Assembly (NCBI GenBank): GCA_001563305.1
Contig: CP013703.1
Location: 1,289,773 to 1,353,772 of the forward strand
Source: a methanogenic archaeon mixed culture ISO4-G1
Lineage (GTDB): Archaea > Thermoplasmatota > Thermoplasmata > Methanomassiliicoccales > Methanomethylophilaceae
Direction of reading: 5' to 3'
Length of the DNA: 64,000 bases
A model generated the notes under the pieces. The model worked only from the letters and a program-made list of their open reading frames with translations, searched no databases and was not told the origin of the DNA. Position numbers and translations under genes: made by a program. Below, piece after piece: positions 11,129-55,993 of this stretch; within the stretch, counting starts at the first letter, position 1; each line of letters begins with the position of its first letter.

Positions 11129-12685
11129 TCAGACCTCTATCAGTCTGCCCATCTGGATCTTATCGGCGGTTATATTCTCGAGATCGTCGAGATAGGCGAC
11201 GAACGCCACCGCCTGGTCCCCGACCACCTGCCTCTCGTAATCGATCAGCGTCTTGTTGTCGTCCCCTCCGGTGGCTATGAAGTCAAGTGTCGTCAGCGTG
11301 TACGTGGCATCCTTCTGGACAGGTTCCTCGCCGACGTATATCGACTGCACCCTGGAATTCACTTCCTTGGACGGGTCGACGGTGACCGTCATTCCGGACA
11401 CCTGTATGAAACCACCGAATGTCAGGCCGTAGTAGCTGTATGAGAACTCCATGAGATCGTACAGGGTCTGTCCCGTCACCGTCATGGTGACGAGGTCGTT
11501 CTGGAAGGGCATGACGTCGTACACGTTCTTCAGCGTGATATCGCCCGCTTCCAGGCTTGTCCTGACACCGCCTCCGTTCACTACCGCGACCTGCGTTCCG
11601 GAATACGCCCTCATCGAATCGGCGACAAGATCTGCCAGATTCGTCTCCTGCGTACGGACGTACTGACGCTCCCCGTTGAGGTATATCTCGGATGTCGCGA
11701 CGACACCGCTGAGGATCTCGTCTATCTGTTCGTGGATCTCCTCGACGGTCTCATCGATCGTCGGATCGCTAATGGCCTCGCCGCGGTACAGATCAGCCAC
11801 GATCTCGCCCTCCAGCGAGACGGTGATCACTCCGACGTTCTTGTTGTAGGAACCGGTGCTGGCGATCACGGTATCGCTCGGGAGCAGTTCTATTGAACCG
11901 TCGGATACCTTCCCATGGTCCATCTCGGTGTGGCTGTGGGCGTCGATGAATATGTCGATTCCGGGGATCTCCGCACATATCTCGTCGGAGGTCACCGTGG
12001 AGGTCGCCTTGAGCCCCACGTGGCCCAATGCCACGATGTAGTCCACATGCTTGCTCTTCAGCAGCTTGACCATGCGTTCGGTGGCATCCATGATGTCGGT
12101 GACGACCGAGTCCCCCATGTTCCCATGGTTCGTGGTGGAAGGCGTATCGGGAGTGAGGATCCCGAAGAAACCTATCTTCCAGCCGTCCTTCTCGATGATC
12201 TTGTACTCCGGGAAGACGCTCTTGCCGGTGGATTCGTATGCCAGGTTCGCGCATATGATCGGATAGTCCAACTCCCCTATGCGTTCCATCATGACAGGGA
12301 ACGTGAAGTCGAACTCATGGTTCCCGGGGATCCCCAGGTCGTATCCTACTTCATTCATCACCTGGACAGAGGCCGCCCCTTCGGTCAGGGTACCGTAGGA
12401 GTTCCCCTGGAGGAAATCTCCCGCATCCACGAGGAACACGGTCTTCCCTTCGGCGACATACTTCTCCTTCAGCTCCTTGACGGTGGAGAACCCCAGGCTG
12501 CCGTCGTCCCCGTAGTAGCAATGGGTGTCGTTGGTGTGGAGGATTATGAATCCGTCCGTGGGTCTTTCCTGCTGCTGTTCGGACATCACGAACGATCCGA
12601 ACATCACAACGACGACGAGAACGATCGCCGCCACCAGGGCCTTTGATGAACGCATAGATGAAGAATCGCATGATTCGTATTTCAT
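11129..12685 (-). CDS. Secreted or membrane-anchored 5'-nucleotidase (UshA/CD73 family)
   Basis: 518 residues from 12685 (AGGA lies 9 nt upstream); an internal ATG at 12655 would remove ten residues and leave a more typical signal sequence. A hydrophobic segment (ALVAAIVLVVVVMFGSFVM) near the N-terminus indicates export or anchoring. The metallophosphoesterase motifs follow in order: HTNDTH, VDAGDFLQG, GNHEFD, GHVG and DAHSHTEM. The C-terminal substrate-binding domain has NGGGVRTS and TLDFIATGGDDN. These enzymes hydrolyse extracellular nucleotides, so a role in nucleoside or phosphate salvage is likely. It is convergent with glnK (29-bp gap) and divergent from cbiX. TGA stop. Confidence 0.9.
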   Translation of the reverse strand: MKYESCDSSSMRSSKALVAAIVLVVVVMFGSFVMSEQQQERPTDGFIILHTNDTHCYYGDDGSLGFSTVKELKEKYVAEGKTVFLVDAGDFLQGNSYGTLTEGAASVQVMNEVGYDLGIPGNHEFDFTFPVMMERIGELDYPIICANLAYESTGKSVFPEYKIIEKDGWKIGFFGILTPDTPSTTNHGNMGDSVVTDIMDATERMVKLLKSKHVDYIVALGHVGLKATSTVTSDEICAEIPGIDIFIDAHSHTEMDHGKVSDGSIELLPSDTVIASTGSYNKNVGVITVSLEGEIVADLYRGEAISDPTIDETVEEIHEQIDEILSGVVATSEIYLNGERQYVRTQETNLADLVADSMRAYSGTQVAVVNGGGVRTSLEAGDITLKNVYDVMPFQNDLVTMTVTGQTLYDLMEFSYSYYGLTFGGFIQVSGMTVTVDPSKEVNSRVQSIYVGEEPVQKDATYTLTTLDFIATGGDDNKTLIDYERQVVGDQAVAFVAYLDDLENITADKIQMGRLIEV

Positions 12686-12761
12686 ATGTTCTTATCCTGG
12701 GATTGCCAGATGCCCTTGATTACGGCAGTACGGGGCCCTTCCCTCCATACTTGGACTATAC

Positions 12762-12780
12762 ATCCATCTAAATATCATCC
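12762..12780. promoter_or_regulatory. TATA-like element between the 5'-nucleotidase gene and cbiX
   Basis: ATCTAAATATCATC is centred 27 nt before the cbiX ATG (12799), consistent with leaderless initiation. The same AT-rich core read on the minus strand (GATATTTAGAT) could serve the divergent nucleotidase gene. Confidence 0.45.
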
Positions 12781-12798
12781 TCATCTATTCTACCACTC

Positions 12799-13557
12799 AT
12801 GAAAACCGCAATCATGCTGATAACGCACGGAACCCCCAGATCGGAAGGGAACGATGCCGCCGTGATCAACCGCGAACCTCTGAAAGAGCTCACCGGCCTG
12901 GAAGTCTACATAGGCTATCTGCACATGGAGCCTTCCATAGATGCCACGCTGTCCAAAATGATGGCGGACGGGGTGGAACGCATCATCGCGGTCCCCTTGT
13001 TCATGTTCCCAGGTCTCCTGAGCGACACAACGGTGAGGGAGGCCTTCGGATTCGAGCCCAAGACCGCATCCGGCAGGATCGAGAGGAACGGGAAGACCGC
13101 GGAGGTCGTGTTCACCGGCACGTTCGGCGACCATCCTCTGATAGAGGACGTCATCATGAAGGTCTGCGAGAAATGCAAGGCCGCGCCCGAGAAGACCTCG
13201 CTGATGCTGATCTTCCACGGCACCAAGGCCCCCGAGACCACGGCCAAGTACGTCGACGCGTGCATCGGATACCTCACGAAGAAAGGATACAATGCCATCG
13301 CAGCGTACAACGAGTTCCAGTCCCCGGATGTCGATGCGGCGGCCGAAGAACTAATCAAGGCGGGAAAGAACGTTCTGGCCATCCCGATGTTCGTATCCCC
13401 CGGCAAGCATACGACTATGGATATTCCGCCGAAGCTCGGGCTCGACGGGGCCAGGACCCGCCAGATCGGCAACGGTCACAGACTGTGCTATGCCAAGGAG
13501 ATCGGCATGCATCCCTGTATATCCAGGATCCTGAAGGCACGCATCGACGAACTGTGA
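12799..13557 (+). CDS. cbiX: CbiX-type sirohydrochlorin cobaltochelatase, two-domain form
   Basis: 252 residues. It inserts Co2+ into sirohydrochlorin in anaerobic cobalamin synthesis (the short archaeal CfbA inserts Ni2+ for F430). Two chelatase halves are visible. The first has THGTPRSEGND at the N-terminus, and the second has IFHGTKAPETT near residue 140. The C-terminal half ends with MFVSPGKHTTMDIPPKLG, whose histidine is part of the metal site. The length is that of the long CbiX/CbiK forms, which favours cobalt. Corrinoids are needed for methyltransferases in this type of methanogen. It appears to be monocistronic. Confidence 0.85.
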   Translation: MKTAIMLITHGTPRSEGNDAAVINREPLKELTGLEVYIGYLHMEPSIDATLSKMMADGVERIIAVPLFMFPGLLSDTTVREAFGFEPKTASGRIERNGKTAEVVFTGTFGDHPLIEDVIMKVCEKCKAAPEKTSLMLIFHGTKAPETTAKYVDACIGYLTKKGYNAIAAYNEFQSPDVDAAAEELIKAGKNVLAIPMFVSPGKHTTMDIPPKLGLDGARTRQIGNGHRLCYAKEIGMHPCISRILKARIDEL

Positions 13558-14929: not shown

Positions 14930-16195
14930 TCAAGCCTTCTGGACTTCGATGCACATACCTGCAGCGACAGTCTGTCCCATGTCACGGATGGCGAACCTTC
15001 CGAGAGGCGGGAACTCCTTTGCGGTCTCAACGACCATGGGCTTGGTGGGCTCGACCTTGACGACTGCGATGTCTCCGGTCTTGAGGAAGTCAGGGTGCTC
15101 CTGCTTTGCCTGTCCGGACTTGGGGTCGATGGTCTTGATGAGCTCAACGAACCTGCATGCGGTCTGGGTGGTGTGGCAGTGGAAGACAGGTGTGTATCCG
15201 ACTGTGATGACCGAGGGGTGGTTGAGGACGACGATCTGTGCAGTGAATGTCTTTGCGACGGAGGGCGGGTTGTCCAGAGGTCCTGCGACGTCTCCCCTCT
15301 TGATGTCGTTCTTTGCGACTCCACCGACGTTGAATCCAACGTTGTCTCCGGGGACTGCCTGGGCAAGCTGCTCGTGGTGCATCTCGATGGTCTTGACCTT
15401 ACCCTTCACGTTGGAGGGGTTGAAGATGACATCCATGTTGGGCTTGAGGACACCAGTCTCGACACGTCCGACAGGGACGGTTCCGATTCCGGTGATGGTG
15501 TAGACATCCTGGACAGGAAGCCTGAGGGGCTTCTCGGTGTGCTTCTCGGGAACCTTGAGGTTGTCGAGAGCTGCGATGAGTGTGGGTCCCTTGTACCAGG
15601 GGGTGTTGGCGGAAGCTACCTTGATGTTGTCTCCCATGTATGCGGAGACGGGGATGAAGGGGACTTCATCGGTCTTGACTCCGACCATCTTCATGAGCTT
15701 GACCATGGCTTCCTTTGCATCGTTGTACTTTGCCTCGTCGTACTTGACTGCATCCATCTTGTTGATGGCGACGATGATCTGCTTGACACCGAGTGTGGTT
15801 GCAAGGAAGACGTGCTCCTTGGTCTGTGCCTGGGGTCCCTCGATAGCGGAGCAGGTGATGATTGCTGCGTCTGCCTGGGAGGTTCCGGTGATCATGTTCT
15901 TGACGAAGTCACGGTGTCCGGGTGCGTCGATGACGGTGAAGTAGTACTTGTCTGTGTAGAACTTCTTGTGAGCGACATCGATGGTAACTCCTCTCTCCCT
16001 CTCCTCTTTGAGTCCGTCCATGACCCATGCGAAGTAGAAGGATCCCTTTCCCTTCTCCTCTGCCTCTTTCTTGTACTTCTCGACGATGTGGGGGTCGATT
16101 GCACCGGTCTCGAGCAGGATCCTTCCCGTGAGGGTGGATTTTCCGTGGTCAACATGTCCGATGATGACCAGATTCATGTGTTCTTTCTCTGCCAT
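14930..16195 (-). CDS. tuf: Elongation factor 1-alpha (EF-Tu equivalent)
   Basis: 421 residues. This GTPase delivers aminoacyl-tRNA to the ribosome. GHVDHGKST (P-loop, about residues 13-21), DAPGHRDF and NKMD are the G motifs, and [12 protein letters not shown] and [19 protein letters not shown] are typical of archaeal EF-1alpha. Domains II and III follow ([20 protein letters not shown]). The length is normal. It sits between fusA (57-bp gap with its own AT-rich stretch) and rpsJ. Confidence 0.97.
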
Positions 16196-16252
16196 TTTTG
16201 TTCCTCCAATGGAATCTTATTTTACGCGTAAACCTGTTTAATATAAAAAGTT

Positions 16253-18538
16253 TCAGAGCCCTGAGTAATACTTGTCGTCGTAGGGTTCGGGGTTGAGTCC
16301 CTTACGGGTCCTGATCTCGGTGACGACTTTCTTCTGTAGGTCGGGCATGAGCTTCTCGAAACCTGCGTTCTCGATGGACCAGATCGCACGTCCCTGTGTG
16401 CTTCCACGGATATCGGATGAGAATCCGAACATGTCTGCGACAGGACAGAGCGCGGTGACGGTCGAGTCAGCACCGTCCTGTCCCATCTCGAGGATGGTAC
16501 CGCGGCGCTGGTTGATCAGGTTGACTGCGCCTCCCATGTAGTCAGGGGGGACGCTGATGAAGACCTTCTGCATGGGCTCGAGCAGGATTCTGCCTGCCTG
16601 GCACATTGCTCCGTAGATACCGTCCCTGACTGCAGGGATGATCTGAGCGGGTCCTCTGTGGATGGTATCCTCGTGGAGCTTTGCATCCATGAGCTTGACC
16701 TTGAGTCCGGCGACCTTCTCGTTAGCGAGGGGTCCCCTCATCATGGCCTCTTCGAATGCCTGCTTCACGAGCTCCATTGTCTCGTGCAGGTACTGGATAC
16801 CCTTGGTGCAGTCGATCAGGACGTTGTTGTTCTTGAATGCGACCACTCCCTTGGCCTCATCGACGTTCATTCCGCAGTCGACGAGGATCTTCGCCAGTTC
16901 CTTGGGGTCCTTGATCTTCGCGTCGGTGTCGATGTCTCCCTTGTGGATGGCATCCTGCACTCCCTGCTCGAGAGGCTCGACGATGAAGTAGAACTTGTTG
17001 TGCTTGTTGGGTGACTTACCCTCGAACTCGTTCGCGTTGGGTCCCTTGACGGACTCCTGGTAGACGACGATAGGAGGCGAGGAGATGATGTCGACACCCT
17101 GTTCGTTGACGATCCTGTACTCGGTGATCTCGAGGTGCAGCTCTCCCATTCCGGACATGAGGTGCTCCCCGGTCTCGTTGTTGATCTCGATGCTCAGCGA
17201 GGGGTCCGCCTTCGCGATGACCCTCAGGACCTCGACCAGCTTGGGCAGGTCCGCCATGCTCTTGGCCTCGATGGCCTTGGTGATGACGGGCTCGGAGTAG
17301 TGTGTCATCTTCTCGAAGGGCTCCATGTCCTTCAGGGATGAAACGGTGGATCCGGCGATGGCGTCCTTCAGTCCGGTGACTGCGACGATGTTTCCGGCCT
17401 TACACTCCTCGATGGGAGTCCTGTCGGCTCCGACCATCAATGCGACGGTCTGGACACGCTGGGGTGCGGGTATTCCGCTGATGTACAGTGTCATTCCCTT
17501 CTTGACGGTTCCAGAGAACAGCCTTCCGATAGCGATCTCTCCGGCCTGCTTGTCCATGATGATCTTGGTGACCATCAGTGCGACCTCTCCGTTGGGGTCG
17601 CAGTTCAGCATCTGCTTTCCGAGCTCGGAGTTGAGGTCTCCCTTCCAGATGGTGGGGATACGGATCTTCTGGGCATCCACCGGGTTGGGGATGTGGTTGA
17701 TCGCCATCTCCAGTGCGACATCCGCGATGGGGATGATCTTGGCGAGCTTCTCCTGGCCGCCCTCCTGAGCGCACAGGTCGAAGACCGTGTTCAGGTTGAA
17801 GGGCTTTCCTGCGAGCTTGTCCTTGAGGTCAGGGCAGAGCTCGATGGCCCTCTTCGTGACCTCAGGCCTGCTGAGGTAGGGGATGGACACGGCCCAGTTG
17901 TTGAAGGCGGATCCGAGTGCGACGGTTCCGTCCTGGAGGCTGACCTGCCACTGCTTGTTGAGCGGTGCGGGCAGGATGTCCATGATCTTCTGGTTGAACT
18001 GGGTGATGATCTTCGAGAACTTCTCGATCATCATCTGGGGTGTGAGCTGCTGCTCGACGATTGCCCTGTCGACCTTGTTGATGAACAGCATAGGCCTGAC
18101 GCGCTCTTTCATCGCCTGCCTGATAACTGTCTCGGTCTGGGGCATGATTCCCTCGACTGCACAGCACAGGATGTAAACTCCGTCCAGTGCCCTCATTGCC
18201 CTGGTGACGTCTCCTCCGAAGTCGACGTGTCCGGGAGTATCGATGAGGTTGACCAGGTAGTGCTCCAGGGCTCCGGTCTTGGGGTTCTTGTAAGGAACGA
18301 CCATTGCTGCGGATGCGGCGTTGATGGTGATTCCCCTTGCTGCCTCCTGCTCGTCGTAGTCCAGCAGACGCTGCTCTCCGGCGGTCTCGGATGACATCAT
18401 TCCGGCTCCTGCGATCAGGTTGTCCGAGAATGTGGTCTTTCCGTGGTCGATATGAGCAGCGGTACCGAGGTTCCTGATGAGCGTCTGGTCCTTCATCAGC
18501 TCTACTGCTTTCTTCGCGTTGTCTTCTCTGCGTCCCAT
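16253..18538 (-). CDS. fusA: Elongation factor 2
   Basis: 761 residues. This translocation GTPase has AAHIDHGKTT, DTPGHVDFGG and NKVDR G motifs, and domains II-V follow. The diphthamide loop near the C-terminus reads LHEDTIHRGPAQIIPAVR, with the histidine that is modified to diphthamide. Part of the diphthamide ligase gene dph6 is at the right end of the window. The ATG at 18538 has AGGTGA 7 nt upstream; the GTG two codons earlier lies inside that SD. Confidence 0.97.
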   Translation of the reverse strand: MGRREDNAKKAVELMKDQTLIRNLGTAAHIDHGKTTFSDNLIAGAGMMSSETAGEQRLLDYDEQEAARGITINAASAAMVVPYKNPKTGALEHYLVNLIDTPGHVDFGGDVTRAMRALDGVYILCCAVEGIMPQTETVIRQAMKERVRPMLFINKVDRAIVEQQLTPQMMIEKFSKIITQFNQKIMDILPAPLNKQWQVSLQDGTVALGSAFNNWAVSIPYLSRPEVTKRAIELCPDLKDKLAGKPFNLNTVFDLCAQEGGQEKLAKIIPIADVALEMAINHIPNPVDAQKIRIPTIWKGDLNSELGKQMLNCDPNGEVALMVTKIIMDKQAGEIAIGRLFSGTVKKGMTLYISGIPAPQRVQTVALMVGADRTPIEECKAGNIVAVTGLKDAIAGSTVSSLKDMEPFEKMTHYSEPVITKAIEAKSMADLPKLVEVLRVIAKADPSLSIEINNETGEHLMSGMGELHLEITEYRIVNEQGVDIISSPPIVVYQESVKGPNANEFEGKSPNKHNKFYFIVEPLEQGVQDAIHKGDIDTDAKIKDPKELAKILVDCGMNVDEAKGVVAFKNNNVLIDCTKGIQYLHETMELVKQAFEEAMMRGPLANEKVAGLKVKLMDAKLHEDTIHRGPAQIIPAVRDGIYGAMCQAGRILLEPMQKVFISVPPDYMGGAVNLINQRRGTILEMGQDGADSTVTALCPVADMFGFSSDIRGSTQGRAIWSIENAGFEKLMPDLQKKVVTEIRTRKGLNPEPYDDKYYSGL

Positions 18539-24350: not shown

Positions 24351-25823
<1,473 letters not shown>

Positions 25824-35458: not shown

Positions 35459-36841
35459 ATGATCTCAGCCCTCGACTCAAGAGTCATCGATGCCAATTCG
35501 GAAGCGTTGGGAATCCCCGTCTCCACACTCATGGACAACGCAGGGAAGGTGGTGGCGCAGTTCCTGAACGACCACTATCCCGAAGGGAACATACTCTTCG
35601 TGTGCGGACCCGGTAACAACGGGGGCGACGGCTTCGCCGCAGCGCTCCTCCTGGACCCCGAGAGGGTCACAGTGGCACTCCTCAGGAAATCGTCCCAGAT
35701 CCACTCGGACATCGCCAAGCAGAAGTATTCCAAGCTCCAGTGCAAGGTCGAGGAGTACAACGTCGCTTTGCTCAACGAGGCGGACGTCATCGTGGACTGC
35801 GCGCTCGGCACGGGTATCAGAGGCAAGGTCAAGGACCCCTACAGGCAGTTCATCCTCGAGGCCAACGCATCGGGCCTCCCGATCGTCTCGGTGGATGTGC
35901 CTTCCGGACTCGGATCCGACGTCACAATCCTGCCCCAGACCACCATCACATTCCACGACGTCAAGGTCGGTATGAACGACGACAACTGTGGCAACATCCT
36001 TGTCGCGGACGTCGGCATCCCTGTGGATGCCATGAAGTTCATCGGACCTGGTGACGTCCTCAGATACCCTCTCCCGGACGAGAACAGCCACAAGGGGGAG
36101 AACGGCAGGCTCATGATCATCGCCGGCGGACCCTACTTCGGAGCCCCAGCGATGTGCTCCATGGCAGCCCTGCGCACCGGTGCGGACATCGTCAGACTGT
36201 TCACGCCGGAGACCGTGGCACATGCCATCTCGACCTACTGCCCCGTACTCATGATCACACCGCTCCCCGGAGACCATCTCTCCACTGAATCGGTGGACAT
36301 GCTCCTGGAGCAGTCCATGTACTACGATGCGGTCCTCCTCGGACCCGGCATCGGCAAGGACCCTGACACCATGCTCGCGGTCAAGGAGTTCGTCAGGAAG
36401 TGCAAGACCCCAATGGTCATCGACGCCGACGCGCTCACTGCGATCATCGGCATGGAGATCCTGTCCCCTGCCATCATAACGCCCCACAAGGGAGAGTTCC
36501 GCAAGCTCGACAGCCAATACGGCGGACCCGAGCCTCTGGCACAGTCGATGAACGTCACGCTCCTCCTCAAAGGGCACGTCGACACCATCACCGACGGTAA
36601 CGCCACGAGATACAACAAGGCCGGGACCCCTGCGATGACCGGTGCGGGTACCGGAGACGTCCTTTCCGGCGCCGTGGCGGCACTGCTGTCCAAGGGACTC
36701 AGCACCATGGAGGCGGCTGCCCTCGGAGCCTTCCTCAGCGGGAAGGCGGGAGAGTACGCGTTCAAGGACAAGTCCTACGGCCTCATCGCCACCGACATCA
36801 TCGAGGAGATCCCGCACGTTCTCAGGGACAACCTGAGGTGA
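35459..36841 (+). CDS. nnr: Bifunctional NAD(P)HX epimerase / ADP-dependent NAD(P)HX dehydratase
   Basis: 460 residues. It repairs hydrated NAD(P)H. The N-terminal YjeF epimerase domain (about 1-205) contains GPGNNGGDGFAAA and VDVPSGLGSDV. The C-terminal ribokinase-like dehydratase domain (about 215-460) contains NGRLMIIAGGPYFGAPAM, LLGPGIGKDPDT, VIDADALT, TPHKGEF and GTGDVLSGAVAALLS. The ATG at 35459 follows AGGTGA, which overlaps the SRP19 stop. The length is typical of the fused enzyme. Confidence 0.95.
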   Translation: MISALDSRVIDANSEALGIPVSTLMDNAGKVVAQFLNDHYPEGNILFVCGPGNNGGDGFAAALLLDPERVTVALLRKSSQIHSDIAKQKYSKLQCKVEEYNVALLNEADVIVDCALGTGIRGKVKDPYRQFILEANASGLPIVSVDVPSGLGSDVTILPQTTITFHDVKVGMNDDNCGNILVADVGIPVDAMKFIGPGDVLRYPLPDENSHKGENGRLMIIAGGPYFGAPAMCSMAALRTGADIVRLFTPETVAHAISTYCPVLMITPLPGDHLSTESVDMLLEQSMYYDAVLLGPGIGKDPDTMLAVKEFVRKCKTPMVIDADALTAIIGMEILSPAIITPHKGEFRKLDSQYGGPEPLAQSMNVTLLLKGHVDTITDGNATRYNKAGTPAMTGAGTGDVLSGAVAALLSKGLSTMEAAALGAFLSGKAGEYAFKDKSYGLIATDIIEEIPHVLRDNLR

Positions 36842-36843
36842 AG

Positions 36844-37638
36844 ATGGAGCTTCAGCCGGTCTACGGCATCCCCGCCCTGAAGGCGGACAACTGCCTCGTC
36901 ATCTGCGACCTGCACATAGGCGTGGAATCCCATCTCAGGGCGAAGGGTTTCCATCTCGTATCACATACATCTGACATGCACCAGGCCATCCTGGATGCCG
37001 CCGACGAGGACATAGGCAGACTGGTAGTCATAGGCGATGTGAAGGACTCCGTGCCGGGTTCAACCAAGCAGGAATATGCCGAGATCCCCGATTTCTTCGA
37101 GAGCCTGTTCGAGCGCTTCGATAACATAGAGGTTGTGCGCGGCAATCACGATACCATGATAGAGGAGTTCCTCCCGCCCCGCGTACGCATCCGTCCCGCC
37201 ACAGGGATCAGGATCGGCGATGTGGGGCTCGTCCACGGCCACACATGGCCCTCTGCAGAGGTCATGGAGGCCCAGACGCTCGTCATGGGGCATAACCACC
37301 CCGCCGTGATGTTCAGGGACGGCGTTGGCAGGCAGATGACAGAACCGTGCTGGTTCAGGGGAAGCTTCGCCAAGACAGAGGACGAGAAATATCCGAAGCT
37401 ACCGGAGAGGTTCATCGTGGTCCCCGCGTTCAACAGGATGCTGGGAGGGTCCCCCGTGAACGTCACAGGGGAGGACCTGCTTGGCCCCATCCTCAATAGC
37501 GACCTACTGGACCTCGACGAGGCCCACATTTACCTTCTGGACGGTGTGGATCTCGGCAGGCGTTCCAACAATATGATCAAGGGCCGCGAGAACACCAGGT
37601 TCAAGGATTCGCTGAAGACCCGTGCGAAATACAGCTGA
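36844..37638 (+). CDS. Archaeal metallophosphoesterase (COG1407)
   Basis: 264 residues from the ATG at 36844; a GTG at 36838 is also possible because it overlaps the nnr stop (GGTGA). Motifs are VICDLHIGVESHLRAKG, VIGDVKDSV, VRGNHDTMIEE, GLVHGHTWPS and MGHNHPAVMF, as in the archaeal COG1407 family. FIVVPAFNRMLGGSPVN is a family feature. The C-terminal sixty residues are charged. The substrate is unknown. Its stop codon abuts the stop codon of the convergent zinc-ribbon gene with no intervening base. Confidence 0.88.
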   Translation: MELQPVYGIPALKADNCLVICDLHIGVESHLRAKGFHLVSHTSDMHQAILDAADEDIGRLVVIGDVKDSVPGSTKQEYAEIPDFFESLFERFDNIEVVRGNHDTMIEEFLPPRVRIRPATGIRIGDVGLVHGHTWPSAEVMEAQTLVMGHNHPAVMFRDGVGRQMTEPCWFRGSFAKTEDEKYPKLPERFIVVPAFNRMLGGSPVNVTGEDLLGPILNSDLLDLDEAHIYLLDGVDLGRRSNNMIKGRENTRFKDSLKTRAKYS

Positions 37639-37935
37639 TCAATACGAGCTGCCGCGGTAGCTGTACTTCTCCTTGTCGATCTTCTCCCTCAGCTTGATCT
37701 GGGCCTGCTCCTCCTTCTTCTCCCCGGAACAGTAGGGGCATCCGCCGCCGGCCACCCTGTCGGCCACCGATTCCATCCACATATGGCCATGCTGGCACTG
37801 CCACCACTGAGGCTATGTGGAACTGATCCTGACAAGGTCCGGATTGGTGCACAGGTTGATGCAAAGATGCCATTCGGACACTATGGGCGAACCATTCTGC
37901 TCCGCCCATTCCCTGAGTGAGATTTCTCTTCCCAT
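37639..37935 (-). CDS. Zinc-ribbon (DUF4379-like) protein with in-frame TAG (candidate pyrrolysine codon)
   Basis: 99 codons from the ATG at 37935 to TGA, interrupted only by TAG at codon 41 (37813-37815). Before the amber the protein reads LREWAEQNGSPIVSEWH and NPDLVRISST. After it comes PQWWQCQHGHMWMESVADRV and GGGCPYCSGEK. Together these make one DUF4379-type zinc ribbon (EWH..N, then VWWxC..GHxW...V..R..G.GCPYC), with C47, H51 and CPYC at 66-69. The homology therefore continues in the same frame across the TAG, without a frameshift. In Methanomassiliicoccales TAG encodes pyrrolysine. The alternative is a recent nonsense mutation. A fragment starting after the TAG would lack the N-terminal half. 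It lies downstream of mvhA with its own TATA-like box (AGTTTTATCT, about 37968-37977). Confidence 0.7.
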
Positions 37936-38032: not shown

Positions 38033-38052
38033 GGGAGGGGTTTCCCCCTCCC
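38033..38052 (-). terminator. Hairpin ending the mvh-hdrA operon
   Basis: GGGAGGGG-(4 nt)-CCCCTCCC is a perfect 8-bp GC-rich stem, about 13 nt past the mvhA stop on the operon's strand. Confidence 0.55.
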
Positions 38053-38065
38053 TTGTTTGGGTTTA

Positions 38066-39583
38066 TCAGTTCCTGGTGATCGTGTCGTAGACGGATCCGT
38101 CAGCGTTCTTGATGACCGCTGTCAGAGGCATCTGTCCGGGCAAGCTGTGGGTCGCACAGGAGTTGCAGGGGTCGTATGCCCTGAACGCCATCTCGACCAT
38201 GTTCAGCAGACCGGGGGAGACCTCGAAGTTGTGGATGAGTCCCTTTGCGACCTTGGCAACGTCCATACAGATGGGTCCGTTGTTGTTGGTCGTTCCGACG
38301 ACAAGGTTACAGGCGGTGACGATTCCGTCCTCGTCGCAGGTGTAGTCGTGTGTCAGGGTTCCCCTGGGAGCCTCGACACATCCGACTCCGCGTCCGCCGG
38401 GGTGGATGTCCTTCTGCTTGATGTCGCTGTTGGTGAGATCGGGGTCCTCAGCATCCTGGAGACACTTCTCTGCGCAGCAGATCAACTCGATGATCCTTGC
38501 CCAGTGGGTGACCAGTGTGTGCTGGCATGCTCCCTCGACTCCGTTGTCCCTGAGGATTCCCTTGTATCTCTCGAACTCCTCCTGGGCGATCGGTGTGGGC
38601 ATCTCCTTCGCGACGTTGAGCCTCGAGAGGGGTGATGCTCTGTACATACCGCTGTCGGGTCCGGGAACGAGTCCCTTGTATCCGGGCTTCCTCAGGTAGG
38701 GAAACTTCTCGTAGGACCAGGGCTCGACTGCCTCTCCGATGTGGTCGAGGTAGTCGTAGGGGTCGTACAGGTCGTGGTCCTCTCCCTTCTGGTTGACGAC
38801 CTTGACCTTTCCGTCGTGGATCTCGAACTGTCCCTTGTCGTTGACAAGTCCCATGTGGTATGTCTCGTTGTAGTAGAGGTCGGGGTTGAGGACGATGTTC
38901 ATGTACTCGTTGTTGGCGAGGACGACGTCGTTGAAGACCTTCATGGAGGTCTTTGCGAACTCGACCATGTCCTTTGCATATCCGATGATCTCCTGCTGCT
39001 GCTCCTTGGTGATCGCGGTGGTGACTCCTCCCGGTACTCCCATGACGGGGTGGGTGGGCTTTCCTCCGATGATCGCCTGGATCTTCTGGGCCTCGGCACG
39101 GGTCTTGATGACCGCGCTTCCGAGCTCGAGTCCGACACGGGCAACGACTCCGAGGACGTTCCTCTCCGCAGCGGGTGCTGCGGGTCCGCAGACGAAGTCG
39201 GGTGCAGCCAGTGCGTAGAAGTGCGCGATGTGGCTGTGCACGAAGTGTGCGTTGTAGAACGTGTCCCTCAGGAGGTACGCGGTCTCGGTGGGCTTCGTGT
39301 TGAAACATCCGTCGATTGCCTTTGTCGAGGCCAGGTGGTGAGCGCCGGGGCACACACCGCACAGCCTTGCCGTGATCTGGTTGAGCTCTGTAACTTTCCT
39401 TCCGATACAGAATCTCTCGAATCCCCTCACCTCGGGGACCTGCCAGTAAGCGTTCGTTACATCTCCCTTGTCGTCAAGGAAGATCTCGATCTTTCCGTGT
39501 CCCTCGAGACGCGTGATGGGGTCAACGGTCACTCTGTTTCCTGTGACCTTCTGCTTGTCATCCCAAATGATGGGTCCTGCCAT
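38066..39583 (-). CDS. mvhA: F420-non-reducing [NiFe]-hydrogenase large subunit MvhA
   Basis: 505 residues. It is the catalytic subunit of the Mvh hydrogenase, which feeds H2 electrons to heterodisulfide reductase for flavin-based bifurcation. Nickel ligands are in RLCGVCPGAHH (N-terminal CxxC) and DPCNSCATHS near the C-terminus. The residues after CATH (LPGQMPLTAVIKN... to the stop) form the tail that is normally cleaved on maturation. ITRLEGHGKIEIFLDD is typical of Mvh/Frh type. It is last in hdrA-mvhD-mvhG-mvhA, with a 1-nt spacing to mvhG, and a terminator hairpin follows. Confidence 0.96.
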   Translation of the reverse strand: MAGPIIWDDKQKVTGNRVTVDPITRLEGHGKIEIFLDDKGDVTNAYWQVPEVRGFERFCIGRKVTELNQITARLCGVCPGAHHLASTKAIDGCFNTKPTETAYLLRDTFYNAHFVHSHIAHFYALAAPDFVCGPAAPAAERNVLGVVARVGLELGSAVIKTRAEAQKIQAIIGGKPTHPVMGVPGGVTTAITKEQQQEIIGYAKDMVEFAKTSMKVFNDVVLANNEYMNIVLNPDLYYNETYHMGLVNDKGQFEIHDGKVKVVNQKGEDHDLYDPYDYLDHIGEAVEPWSYEKFPYLRKPGYKGLVPGPDSGMYRASPLSRLNVAKEMPTPIAQEEFERYKGILRDNGVEGACQHTLVTHWARIIELICCAEKCLQDAEDPDLTNSDIKQKDIHPGGRGVGCVEAPRGTLTHDYTCDEDGIVTACNLVVGTTNNNGPICMDVAKVAKGLIHNFEVSPGLLNMVEMAFRAYDPCNSCATHSLPGQMPLTAVIKNADGSVYDTITRN

Positions 39584-54295: not shown

Positions 54296-55750
54296 ATGGA
54301 TCCAGTCTCCGTCTCGGTCATCGCACTGTTCCTGTTGCTCGGCTGTGCTCTCGGAACGATCACCGGACTCGTTCCGGGGATCCACGTGAACACCTTGGCG
54401 ACGATGATGTTTACATCGTATCCCGTCATGCGGGATGTCCTCGGCCCCCTCATCCAGGAGGATCTGGTCCCGATAGCGGTCTGCGGGGTCATCATGTCAG
54501 CATCCGTCGTCCATTCATTCATGGACTTCGTACCGTCCGTGTTCATAGGGGCACCGGATGCCGAGGATGCGCTGTCCGTCCTTCCCGGACATAAACTATT
54601 GCTCGAAGGGCACGGGATGACGGCGGTACGTGCTGCCGCGGTCGGCATCCTCATAGGGTGCTCCGCCGCCATAGTTATGGCCATACCGTTGCAGTACATC
54701 ATGCTGAACGGCGCGGCGGAGATCCTGAACGGAATGACATGGTACGTCCTGGTCGCGATAAGCGGATTGCTGATGATCAACGAGTACAGGAAAGGGACGC
54801 TCGTCCCGGGCATCACCGCCTTCATCCTGGCAGGTGTTCTGGGATATGCCGTGATGAACCTCCCCATTCCCTCCGGCGGGATACTCGGAGAAGGAACGCT
54901 GCTGATGCCCCTGCTCACCGGACTGTTCGGTCTGCCGGTCCTCCTGGAATCAGACGGCGGACATCGGTTCCCCGAGCAGACCGACGACGGGAAGGATCCC
55001 GTAGGACCTGTCCCCGGACTGAAAGGCGTGATAATGGGCACGGTGGCCGGGTGGTTCCCGGGGATAACATCCACGGTGGGTGCGACCGTCTCGTCCACGG
55101 TCATGCCAGACAGGAGCCCGGAGAGGTTCATCTCCACCGTTGCCTCCATAGGGACCGTGACCACGGTCCTATCATTGGTCACGCTCTCGGTTTCTGGCGG
55201 AGGAAGGTCGGGTACGGTCATCGTCATCGGACAGATCCTCGGGGAGTCCATCGGGGGATTCGCATCGGTGCCGTTCACCATGATGCTCCTTTCTGCGGCG
55301 GTGAGCTCGGTCATCGGTTATGTCCTGATGATCAAGGCGGGACGCGTGATGGCCGGAGCGATCACGGGAGTCGACCAGAAGAAGCTGGCACATATCGTCA
55401 TAATCTTCCTGCTGGCACTTACGTTCCTGACGACAGGCGTATGGGGATTGGCGATCTCCGCGATGGCATTGACGATAGGTTACATCCCGGTGAGGACCGG
55501 TTGCGGAAGGACGATGCTCTGCGGCTGTCTCATCCTGCCGTGCTTACTGCGATTCCCTCTTGGATTCCGCCTTGGACAGGAACTTCTGGGAATCGACGAT
55601 GAACCTCTCGTGCGTCCCCGAACCGATCTCCCCTGCGGAATCGTAGACCCTTACCGAGAACACCAGCCTGCGCCTGTCCACCTCGATAAGCTCCGTCTCG
55701 CACACGACGGTCATGCCGATCGGCGTGGGTGCGCTGTGGGCGATGTCTAG
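54296..55750 (+). CDS. TctA/DUF112-type permease with abnormal C-terminus
   Basis: The frame codes 484 residues to TAG at 55748-55750. About ten membrane segments and the DUF112 (COG1784, tripartite tricarboxylate-type permease) pattern are present, e.g. GTITGLVPGIHVNTLATMM at the N-terminus and GVIMGTVAGWFPGITSTVGA in the middle. Family similarity ends near residue 415 (GYIPVRTGCGRTMLCGCLIL). The last ~68 residues (from about 55544) are polar, have no family match and lie antisense to the thioesterase gene. The original stop seems to have been lost. This is the only gene in the window whose frame ends at TAG; reading through it would reach TGA six codons later (55766-55768). A TATA-like CTTTATCTA is centred 28 nt before the start. 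Confidence 0.75.
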   Translation: MDPVSVSVIALFLLLGCALGTITGLVPGIHVNTLATMMFTSYPVMRDVLGPLIQEDLVPIAVCGVIMSASVVHSFMDFVPSVFIGAPDAEDALSVLPGHKLLLEGHGMTAVRAAAVGILIGCSAAIVMAIPLQYIMLNGAAEILNGMTWYVLVAISGLLMINEYRKGTLVPGITAFILAGVLGYAVMNLPIPSGGILGEGTLLMPLLTGLFGLPVLLESDGGHRFPEQTDDGKDPVGPVPGLKGVIMGTVAGWFPGITSTVGATVSSTVMPDRSPERFISTVASIGTVTTVLSLVTLSVSGGGRSGTVIVIGQILGESIGGFASVPFTMMLLSAAVSSVIGYVLMIKAGRVMAGAITGVDQKKLAHIVIIFLLALTFLTTGVWGLAISAMALTIGYIPVRTGCGRTMLCGCLILPCLLRFPLGFRLGQELLGIDDEPLVRPRTDLPCGIVDPYREHQPAPVHLDKLRLAHDGHADRRGCAVGDV

Positions 55751-55993
55751 ATGGGTCCCCACGGTTGAAAAGCCCATGTCCAGATACGGGCCGACGCTCT
55801 CGGATGCGGTCTTCTCTATGAGAGCGATCATCGAAGGAGTGGCGAACACCGGGAGGTCCCCGCTCCCCACCGTCGAGGCCAGGTTCCCCTCGTCGACCGT
55901 GACGGACTGCGCCCCTTTGATACCTGTGCTGAGCATGCTCCGCAATACATCGGATGGATAATATTGGTTCCGTCGCAACTTCATATGGAACAT
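55544..55993 (-). CDS. Fluoroacetyl-CoA thioesterase (FlK)-like hotdog protein
   Basis: 149 residues (a start at 55984 is equally possible). FATPSMIALIEKTASESV, GFSTVGTHLDIAHSAPTPIG and the C-terminal GEIGSGTHERFIVD match the FlK family hotdog fold, in which Thr, Glu and His act in catalysis. The acyl-CoA substrate is unknown. It overlaps the 3' end of the permease frame by 207 bp on the opposite strand. It is divergent from the MFS gene. Confidence 0.85.
   Translation of the reverse strand: MFHMKLRRNQYYPSDVLRSMLSTGIKGAQSVTVDEGNLASTVGSGDLPVFATPSMIALIEKTASESVGPYLDMGFSTVGTHLDIAHSAPTPIGMTVVCETELIEVDRRRLVFSVRVYDSAGEIGSGTHERFIVDSQKFLSKAESKRESQ

Follow-up and report, generated by a model that had tools for sequence, protein, structure and literature searches.

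In-frame UAG codons in archaeon ISO4-G1: a DUF4379 zinc-finger gene with a probable pyrrolysine and the reading of UAG in a genome sample

Introduction

Archaea that read all of their TAG codons as pyrrolysine (Pyl) were reportedly described by Kivenson et al. in Science in 2025. For 'Candidatus Methanomethylophilus alvus', Borrel et al. (2014) predicted 16 Pyl-containing proteins other than methyltransferases, in a genome in which TAG accounted for 1.6% of the stops (PMC4153887, Table 7), and a background with so few TAG stops was proposed to make in-frame amber codons stable (PMC4153887). Pyl had also been described in a tRNA-His guanylyltransferase (Heinemann et al. 2009, cited in PMC4153887). 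The DUF4379 domain, in turn, occurs in mt-SAF33, a protein of the mitoribosome assembly intermediates of Trypanosoma brucei (PDB 6sga, 7pua). No earlier mention of a Pyl-containing DUF4379 protein was found in the searchable literature.

In this study, a DUF4379 gene with an in-frame TAG from the gut-type methanogenic archaeon of mixed culture ISO4-G1 is compared with these systems. The gene lies in a stretch of 64,000 nucleotides, here called the window, to which positions without a prefix refer, and it had been singled out in a first-pass annotation of the sequence as a candidate Pyl gene outside methylamine metabolism.

The capacity to decode UAG

The genome consists of one contig of 1,593,503 bases (1.59 Mb; 98% completeness), and a search for pylTSBCD, the check proposed with the first-pass annotation, recovered all five genes. 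The pyrrolysine cassette is complete and ordered pylT-pylS-pylB-pylC-pylD, with proteins scoring above the NCBIfam cut-offs (TIGR models); tRNA-Pyl, with anticodon CTA, is encoded at C1:657602-657672 and is followed by pylS, pylB, pylC and pylD. PylS comprises 273 residues, without the N-terminal domain in the frame read. It is present in 28/31 genomes of the genus, and its relatives in named records are mostly from Methanomethylophilaceae, Methanoplasma and Methanomassiliicoccaceae archaea, which places the organism in the Methanomassiliicoccales.

The DUF4379 gene and its zinc finger

The frame described earlier, running from ATG to TGA and broken just by a TAG at codon 41, was confirmed and assigned to the minus strand, on which the annotation had been silent (Table 1). 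Its translation reads MGREISLREWAEQNGSPIVSEWHLCINLCTNPDLVRISST before and PQWWQCQHGHMWMESVADRVAGGGCPYCSGEKKEEQAQIKLREKIDKEKYSYRGSSY after the TAG, which is its sole interruption. The codon-usage score was +24 in this frame and between -7 and -77 in the other five; by halves, it was weakly positive before the TAG (+4.2) and reached +19.8 after it. A start downstream of the TAG was ruled out, since the first methionine there, M52, sits within the GHMW zinc motif.

Table 1. Coordinates of the DUF4379 gene, its features and surroundings, and of the DNA ligase gene used as a control
Feature	Position	Strand	Remarks
DUF4379 zinc-finger gene, 98 residues when read through TAG	37639..37935	-	ATG at 37935, TGA at 37641-37639
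In-frame TAG, codon 41, probable pyrrolysine	37813..37815	-	column K in 18/33 relatives
PF14311 DUF4379 domain, residues 18-71, crosses TAG	37723..37884	-	Pfam profile match
C47 codon (WWQC), inferred zinc ligand	37795..37797	-	ligand role inferred from family
H51 codon (GHMW), inferred zinc ligand	37783..37785	-	
C66 codon (CPYC), invariant, inferred zinc ligand	37738..37740	-	
C69 codon (CPYC), invariant, inferred zinc ligand	37729..37731	-	
Inverted repeat, perfect 8-bp arms, directly upstream of start codon	37942..37962	.	ACTTGGAT-GTATA-ATCCAAGT
Terminator-like stem-loop between mvhA-like gene and DUF4379 gene	38033..38052	.	scored on + strand
Phosphoesterase gene (SbcD-related/PdeM-like), convergent neighbour, synteny anchor	36838..37638	+	
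mvhA-like hydrogenase large-subunit gene (named by inspection), neighbour on the upstream side, synteny anchor	38066..39583	-	
ATP-dependent DNA ligase gene, TAG at codon 46	L069:2539-4305, G000:C1:1052542-1054305	-	DNA_ligase_A_N match 3-176

The claim that one DUF4379 domain occupies both sides of the TAG was borne out by the profile match across the codon, which scored 48.5 bits against a curated cut-off of 24.5. On its own, the segment that follows the TAG scored 37.7 bits, so that the preceding half contributes about 11 bits, and the 40 residues before the TAG gave no Pfam match on their own. Homology is also seen ahead of the domain, where residues 5-32 matched the N-terminal end of a DUF4379 protein from the congener G089 (ISLREWAEQNGSPIVSEW versus ISLYEWCLQNNSSLIEEW) with an alignment score of 68 that was reached by none of 5,000 shuffles, the largest value being 50.

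The protein carries the EW(x)4N, WWxC, GHxW and CPxC motifs, and all four inferred zinc ligands within them are intact. In the DUF4379 alignment, W22, N27, C66 and C69 were invariant across 26 sequences, and W45, G50 and H51 were nearly so. When modelled with lysine at position 41, the predicted structure was confident over residues 1-70 (block pLDDT 90-96) and placed residue 41 directly before the strand bearing WWQC. The best solved relative by both profile and fold was mt-SAF33, from trypanosome mitoribosomal small-subunit assembly intermediates; the profile match had an E value of 1e-12, and the best PDB fold match, 7pua_Fd, had a probability of 1.00, an E value of 1e-3 and a TM score of 0.54. 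Nucleic-acid binding is therefore the likeliest role of the archaeal protein, which, judging by its homology to the solved DUF4379 proteins, probably binds nucleic acid. However, mt-SAF33 is eukaryotic and without Pyl, and the role in ribosome assembly belongs to mt-SAF33.

The TAG column, the origin of the gene and its surroundings

The TAG had been said to lie just before the conserved WWxC, near the first zinc ligand. It is indeed situated six residues ahead of that ligand, but the column itself is variable and mostly lysine, neither conserved nor a ligand: in 33 DUF4379 domains of relatives it held K 18 times, Q three times, G, N, E, V and F twice each, and A and R once each. The codons for K, Q and E that end in G are each one base away from TAG. 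Conservation of a TAG would support Pyl insertion without strictly defining it, and no DUF4379 homologue was found with TAG at the codon-41 column; neutral Pyl sites share this lack of conservation, as in the DNA ligase. In the alignment of homologues proposed earlier, the TAG was not kept, being replaced by K, Q, E and others in relatives; the window copy showed no sign of decay.

The multi-repeat DUF4379 proteins of congeners (L076-L079) share the domain, and one of their N-termini is clearly homologous to that of the window protein; they differ in having many repeats against one, in some cases with a nuclease-like segment, and in a TAG that is either absent or located at columns other than codon 41. 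In G089, TAGs in the DUF4379 repeats replace R, Q/K/E and L, and the repeat genes of that congener in L076 (G089:C88:3000-11500), with TAGs at several other columns, look partly fragmented. A single-domain orthologue of the same architecture was found neither among 147 genomes of the order nor among 390 of the phylum, and no close relatives of the protein were found in GTDB r220 contigs or IMG/VR. The gene is specific to its own lineage.

In most of the genus the phosphoesterase and mvhA-like neighbours keep their synteny, and the interval between these two anchors measures 434 nt here versus 85 nt in the two nearest relatives with this synteny. In two other congeners unrelated genes are inserted at the same place, so that the interval gains genes repeatedly. 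By eye, the inserts in L084 (G080) and L102 (G078) are dipeptidase-like and nitroreductase-like genes, and the spot appears to be one of recurrent insertion.

With regard to DNA and RNA elements, the inverted repeat upstream of the start codon is a possible operator or leader hairpin. A relative of this repeat with three mismatches occurs at 12749-12769, two matches being observed against a chance expectation of 0.24. The terminator-like stem-loop, in turn, was also found in congeners that have no DUF4379 gene. No PYLIS-like RNA structure stood out 3′ of the UAG (z = -0.89); such structures are not required for UAG decoding. Rfam returned only rRNA and tRNA over the whole window. A search against a defence-system library gave no match. 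The rRNA genes of the window are unlinked, LSU (1-1314) and SSU (24352-25821, minus strand) lying on the same strand about 23 kb apart.

UAG in a sample of the genome

The use of TAG was surveyed in the window and in 20 further stretches, each about 20 kb long, which together amount to 463,772 bases or 29% of the genome. With a crude ORF caller, based on a codon score and a length of at least 30 codons, which misses short genes and also lists spurious antisense ORFs, 432 ORFs with coding-like codon usage were found to end in TGA (377), TAA (36) or TAG (19). Coding-like sequence continued past the stop in 13 of the 19 TAG cases versus 41 of the 413 TGA or TAA cases (Fisher P = 6.9e-9), although one of the 13, at L064:17276, seems to be an artefact of an adjacent gene. 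The other TAG ends mostly look like spurious antisense ORFs. An unclassed TAG end was observed at L066:17643-18044, where 133 residues of a secreted-like protein are followed by 83 more codons. A second unclassed end lies in the window, where a long frame resembling a membrane protein (54296-55768, plus strand) has a TAG at codon 485 and a TGA five codons later; the TAG may be a genuine stop, or it may be read through briefly, with the TGA as a backup. Altogether, hardly any of the sampled genes clearly depends on TAG for termination. Since the Pyl cassette is present as well, UAG would behave, as judged from this 29% of the genome, essentially as a sense codon.

As expected, interior TAGs were found in the methylamine methyltransferase controls, namely two copies of mtmB, mtbB and mttB, the last two also serving as controls for Pfam matches across a TAG, and the TAG of mtmB is retained throughout the genus. 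Outside this group, the codon falls within Pfam matches of SfsA (TAG 166, match 80-213), a VTC-domain protein (TAG 196, match 23-241), a NifH/NifD-like fusion (TAG 541, Oxidored_nitro match 305-669), a phosphoglucomutase-like protein (TAG 387, match 383-435 to the C-terminal domain PGM_PMM_IV) and a GT8 glycosyltransferase (L075:3982-5073, minus strand), in which two TAGs, 155 and 262, lie within one match (32-287). In a UvrD-like helicase the TAG (codon 410) stands between domains, and a 142-residue protein with an interior TAG has no Pfam match. The non-methylamine TAG genes of the sample, the DUF4379 and DNA ligase genes included, number nine, which scales to about 30 genome-wide. Three of these genes, the UvrD-like helicase with a possible PD-(D/E)XK end, SfsA and the VTC-domain protein, occur within 14 kb of L066 (3229-6117, plus; 12307-12993, plus; 15798-16583, minus). 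The product that joins a NifH-like and a nitrogenase-component-1-like part has 712 residues and is encoded at L075:1297-3435 (minus strand), about G000:C1:1531297-1533435.

The strongest control for UAG decoding is the ATP-dependent DNA ligase, of which the copy in Table 1 was the sole one found in the genome. Truncation after residue 45 would leave the ligase without any of its catalytic domains. The gene is present in 29 of 31 genomes of the genus, and the internal stop occurs in the source genome only (0/28 congeners); in the 15 congeners in which codon 46 could be read, it was CAG in 13 and CAA in 2, and CAG becomes TAG by a single C-to-T change. The TAG of mtmB being kept genus-wide and that of the ligase being found in one genome, the sequences point to two classes of Pyl site, a conserved one (mtmB) and a lineage-specific one that is apparently tolerated (DNA ligase, DUF4379).

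Pyrrolysine insertion and rival explanations

Taken together, the complete cassette, the mostly lysine column and the lack of any sign of decay make Pyl the likely 41st residue of the DUF4379 protein, as had been proposed earlier. We consider it quite probable that UAG 41 is translated by tRNA-Pyl as pyrrolysine, through a near-neutral codon change of the kind described for 'Ca. M. alvus' (PMC4153887), and that the product is a treble-clef zinc-finger protein of 98 residues. The codon would have arisen, most likely recently, from AAG (or CAG or GAG) by a one-base change at a position that is presumably at the surface; UAG being generally decoded in this archaeon, it would be read without a special signal, and the change, presumably neutral, would be tolerated as it is decoded. 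The full-length protein would then fold and bind zinc like its relatives. The main rival is a pseudogene, in which a zinc-finger gene acquired laterally or derived from an array was broken by a nonsense mutation and yields no functional product. A lineage-restricted orphan, absent from the 85-nt interval of the two nearest relatives with the same synteny, would suit such a history, as would the weak codon score before the TAG and the partly fragmented arrays of G089. However, the only interruption is the one stop codon for which the genome holds a decoding tRNA, the frame, start, end and inferred zinc ligands are all intact, and TAG likewise interrupts the DNA ligase and other housekeeping genes; a pseudogene is thus unlikely.

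The first-pass annotation had also raised a switch between a short and a long form, and a regulated read-through would yield 40- and 98-residue forms in proportion to the pyrrolysine supply, thereby sensing methylamine status. Decoding at UAG would always compete with the release factor, and low Pyl would lead to less full-length product. However, the 40-residue form ends ahead of C47, H51, C66 and C69 and so lacks all four inferred ligands and most of the domain, no relative conserves the TAG, no structured RNA element follows it, and its equal occurrence in DNA ligase, SfsA and others argues for general decoding. A useful switch is very improbable, given a short form without zinc ligands and a TAG spread over unrelated genes. 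The same low standing is given to a Pyl-gated regulator, in which production of the full-length, nucleic-acid-binding zinc finger would depend on the Pyl supply and the protein would possibly act on its own operator-like inverted repeat. A sequencing or assembly error that conceals a sense codon would require a single-base difference from AAG or CAG, but the genome is a single, nearly complete contig and many other genes, the methyltransferase controls included, show TAG-only interruptions, so the chance of such an error is slight.

Implications and comparison with known systems

The reading of UAG 41 as Pyl would bring DUF4379, a family that the 2014 list does not contain, into the set of predicted Pyl-containing proteins. 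The more useful outcome is the broad reading of UAG as a sense codon in this genome, apparently including its only ATP-dependent DNA ligase. If UAG 46 of the ligase, a glutamine (Q46) in congeners, is read as Pyl, DNA replication would need pyrrolysine, beyond growth on methylamines, and if this reading is confirmed, the dependence of viability on Pyl would be directly testable. For annotation, the standard code would truncate perhaps 30 non-methyltransferase genes in the genome, as scaled from nine in 29%.

The likeness to the archaea of Kivenson et al. lies in the fact that hardly any gene ends in TAG here, as sampled in 29% of the genome. The tRNA-His guanylyltransferase, said to be that of Methanosarcina acetivorans, resembles the present case in having a single Pyl, explained by neutral change, in a non-methyltransferase gene; it differs in being another protein and in having been studied experimentally. 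'Ca. M. alvus' belongs to the same order and shares the Pyl cassette, the rare TAG stops and the in-frame TAGs in unrelated genes, which often have sense-codon homologues in relatives, as here (PMC4153887). However, it is another species, and its Table 7 names neither a DUF4379 or zinc-finger protein nor a DNA ligase (PMC4153887). The earlier view of the DUF4379 gene as a special Pyl case outside methylamine metabolism found no support, as read-through of UAG extends to many genes here and 16 such proteins had been predicted in 'Ca. M. alvus' (PMC4153887); the gene is a further example of a known phenomenon.
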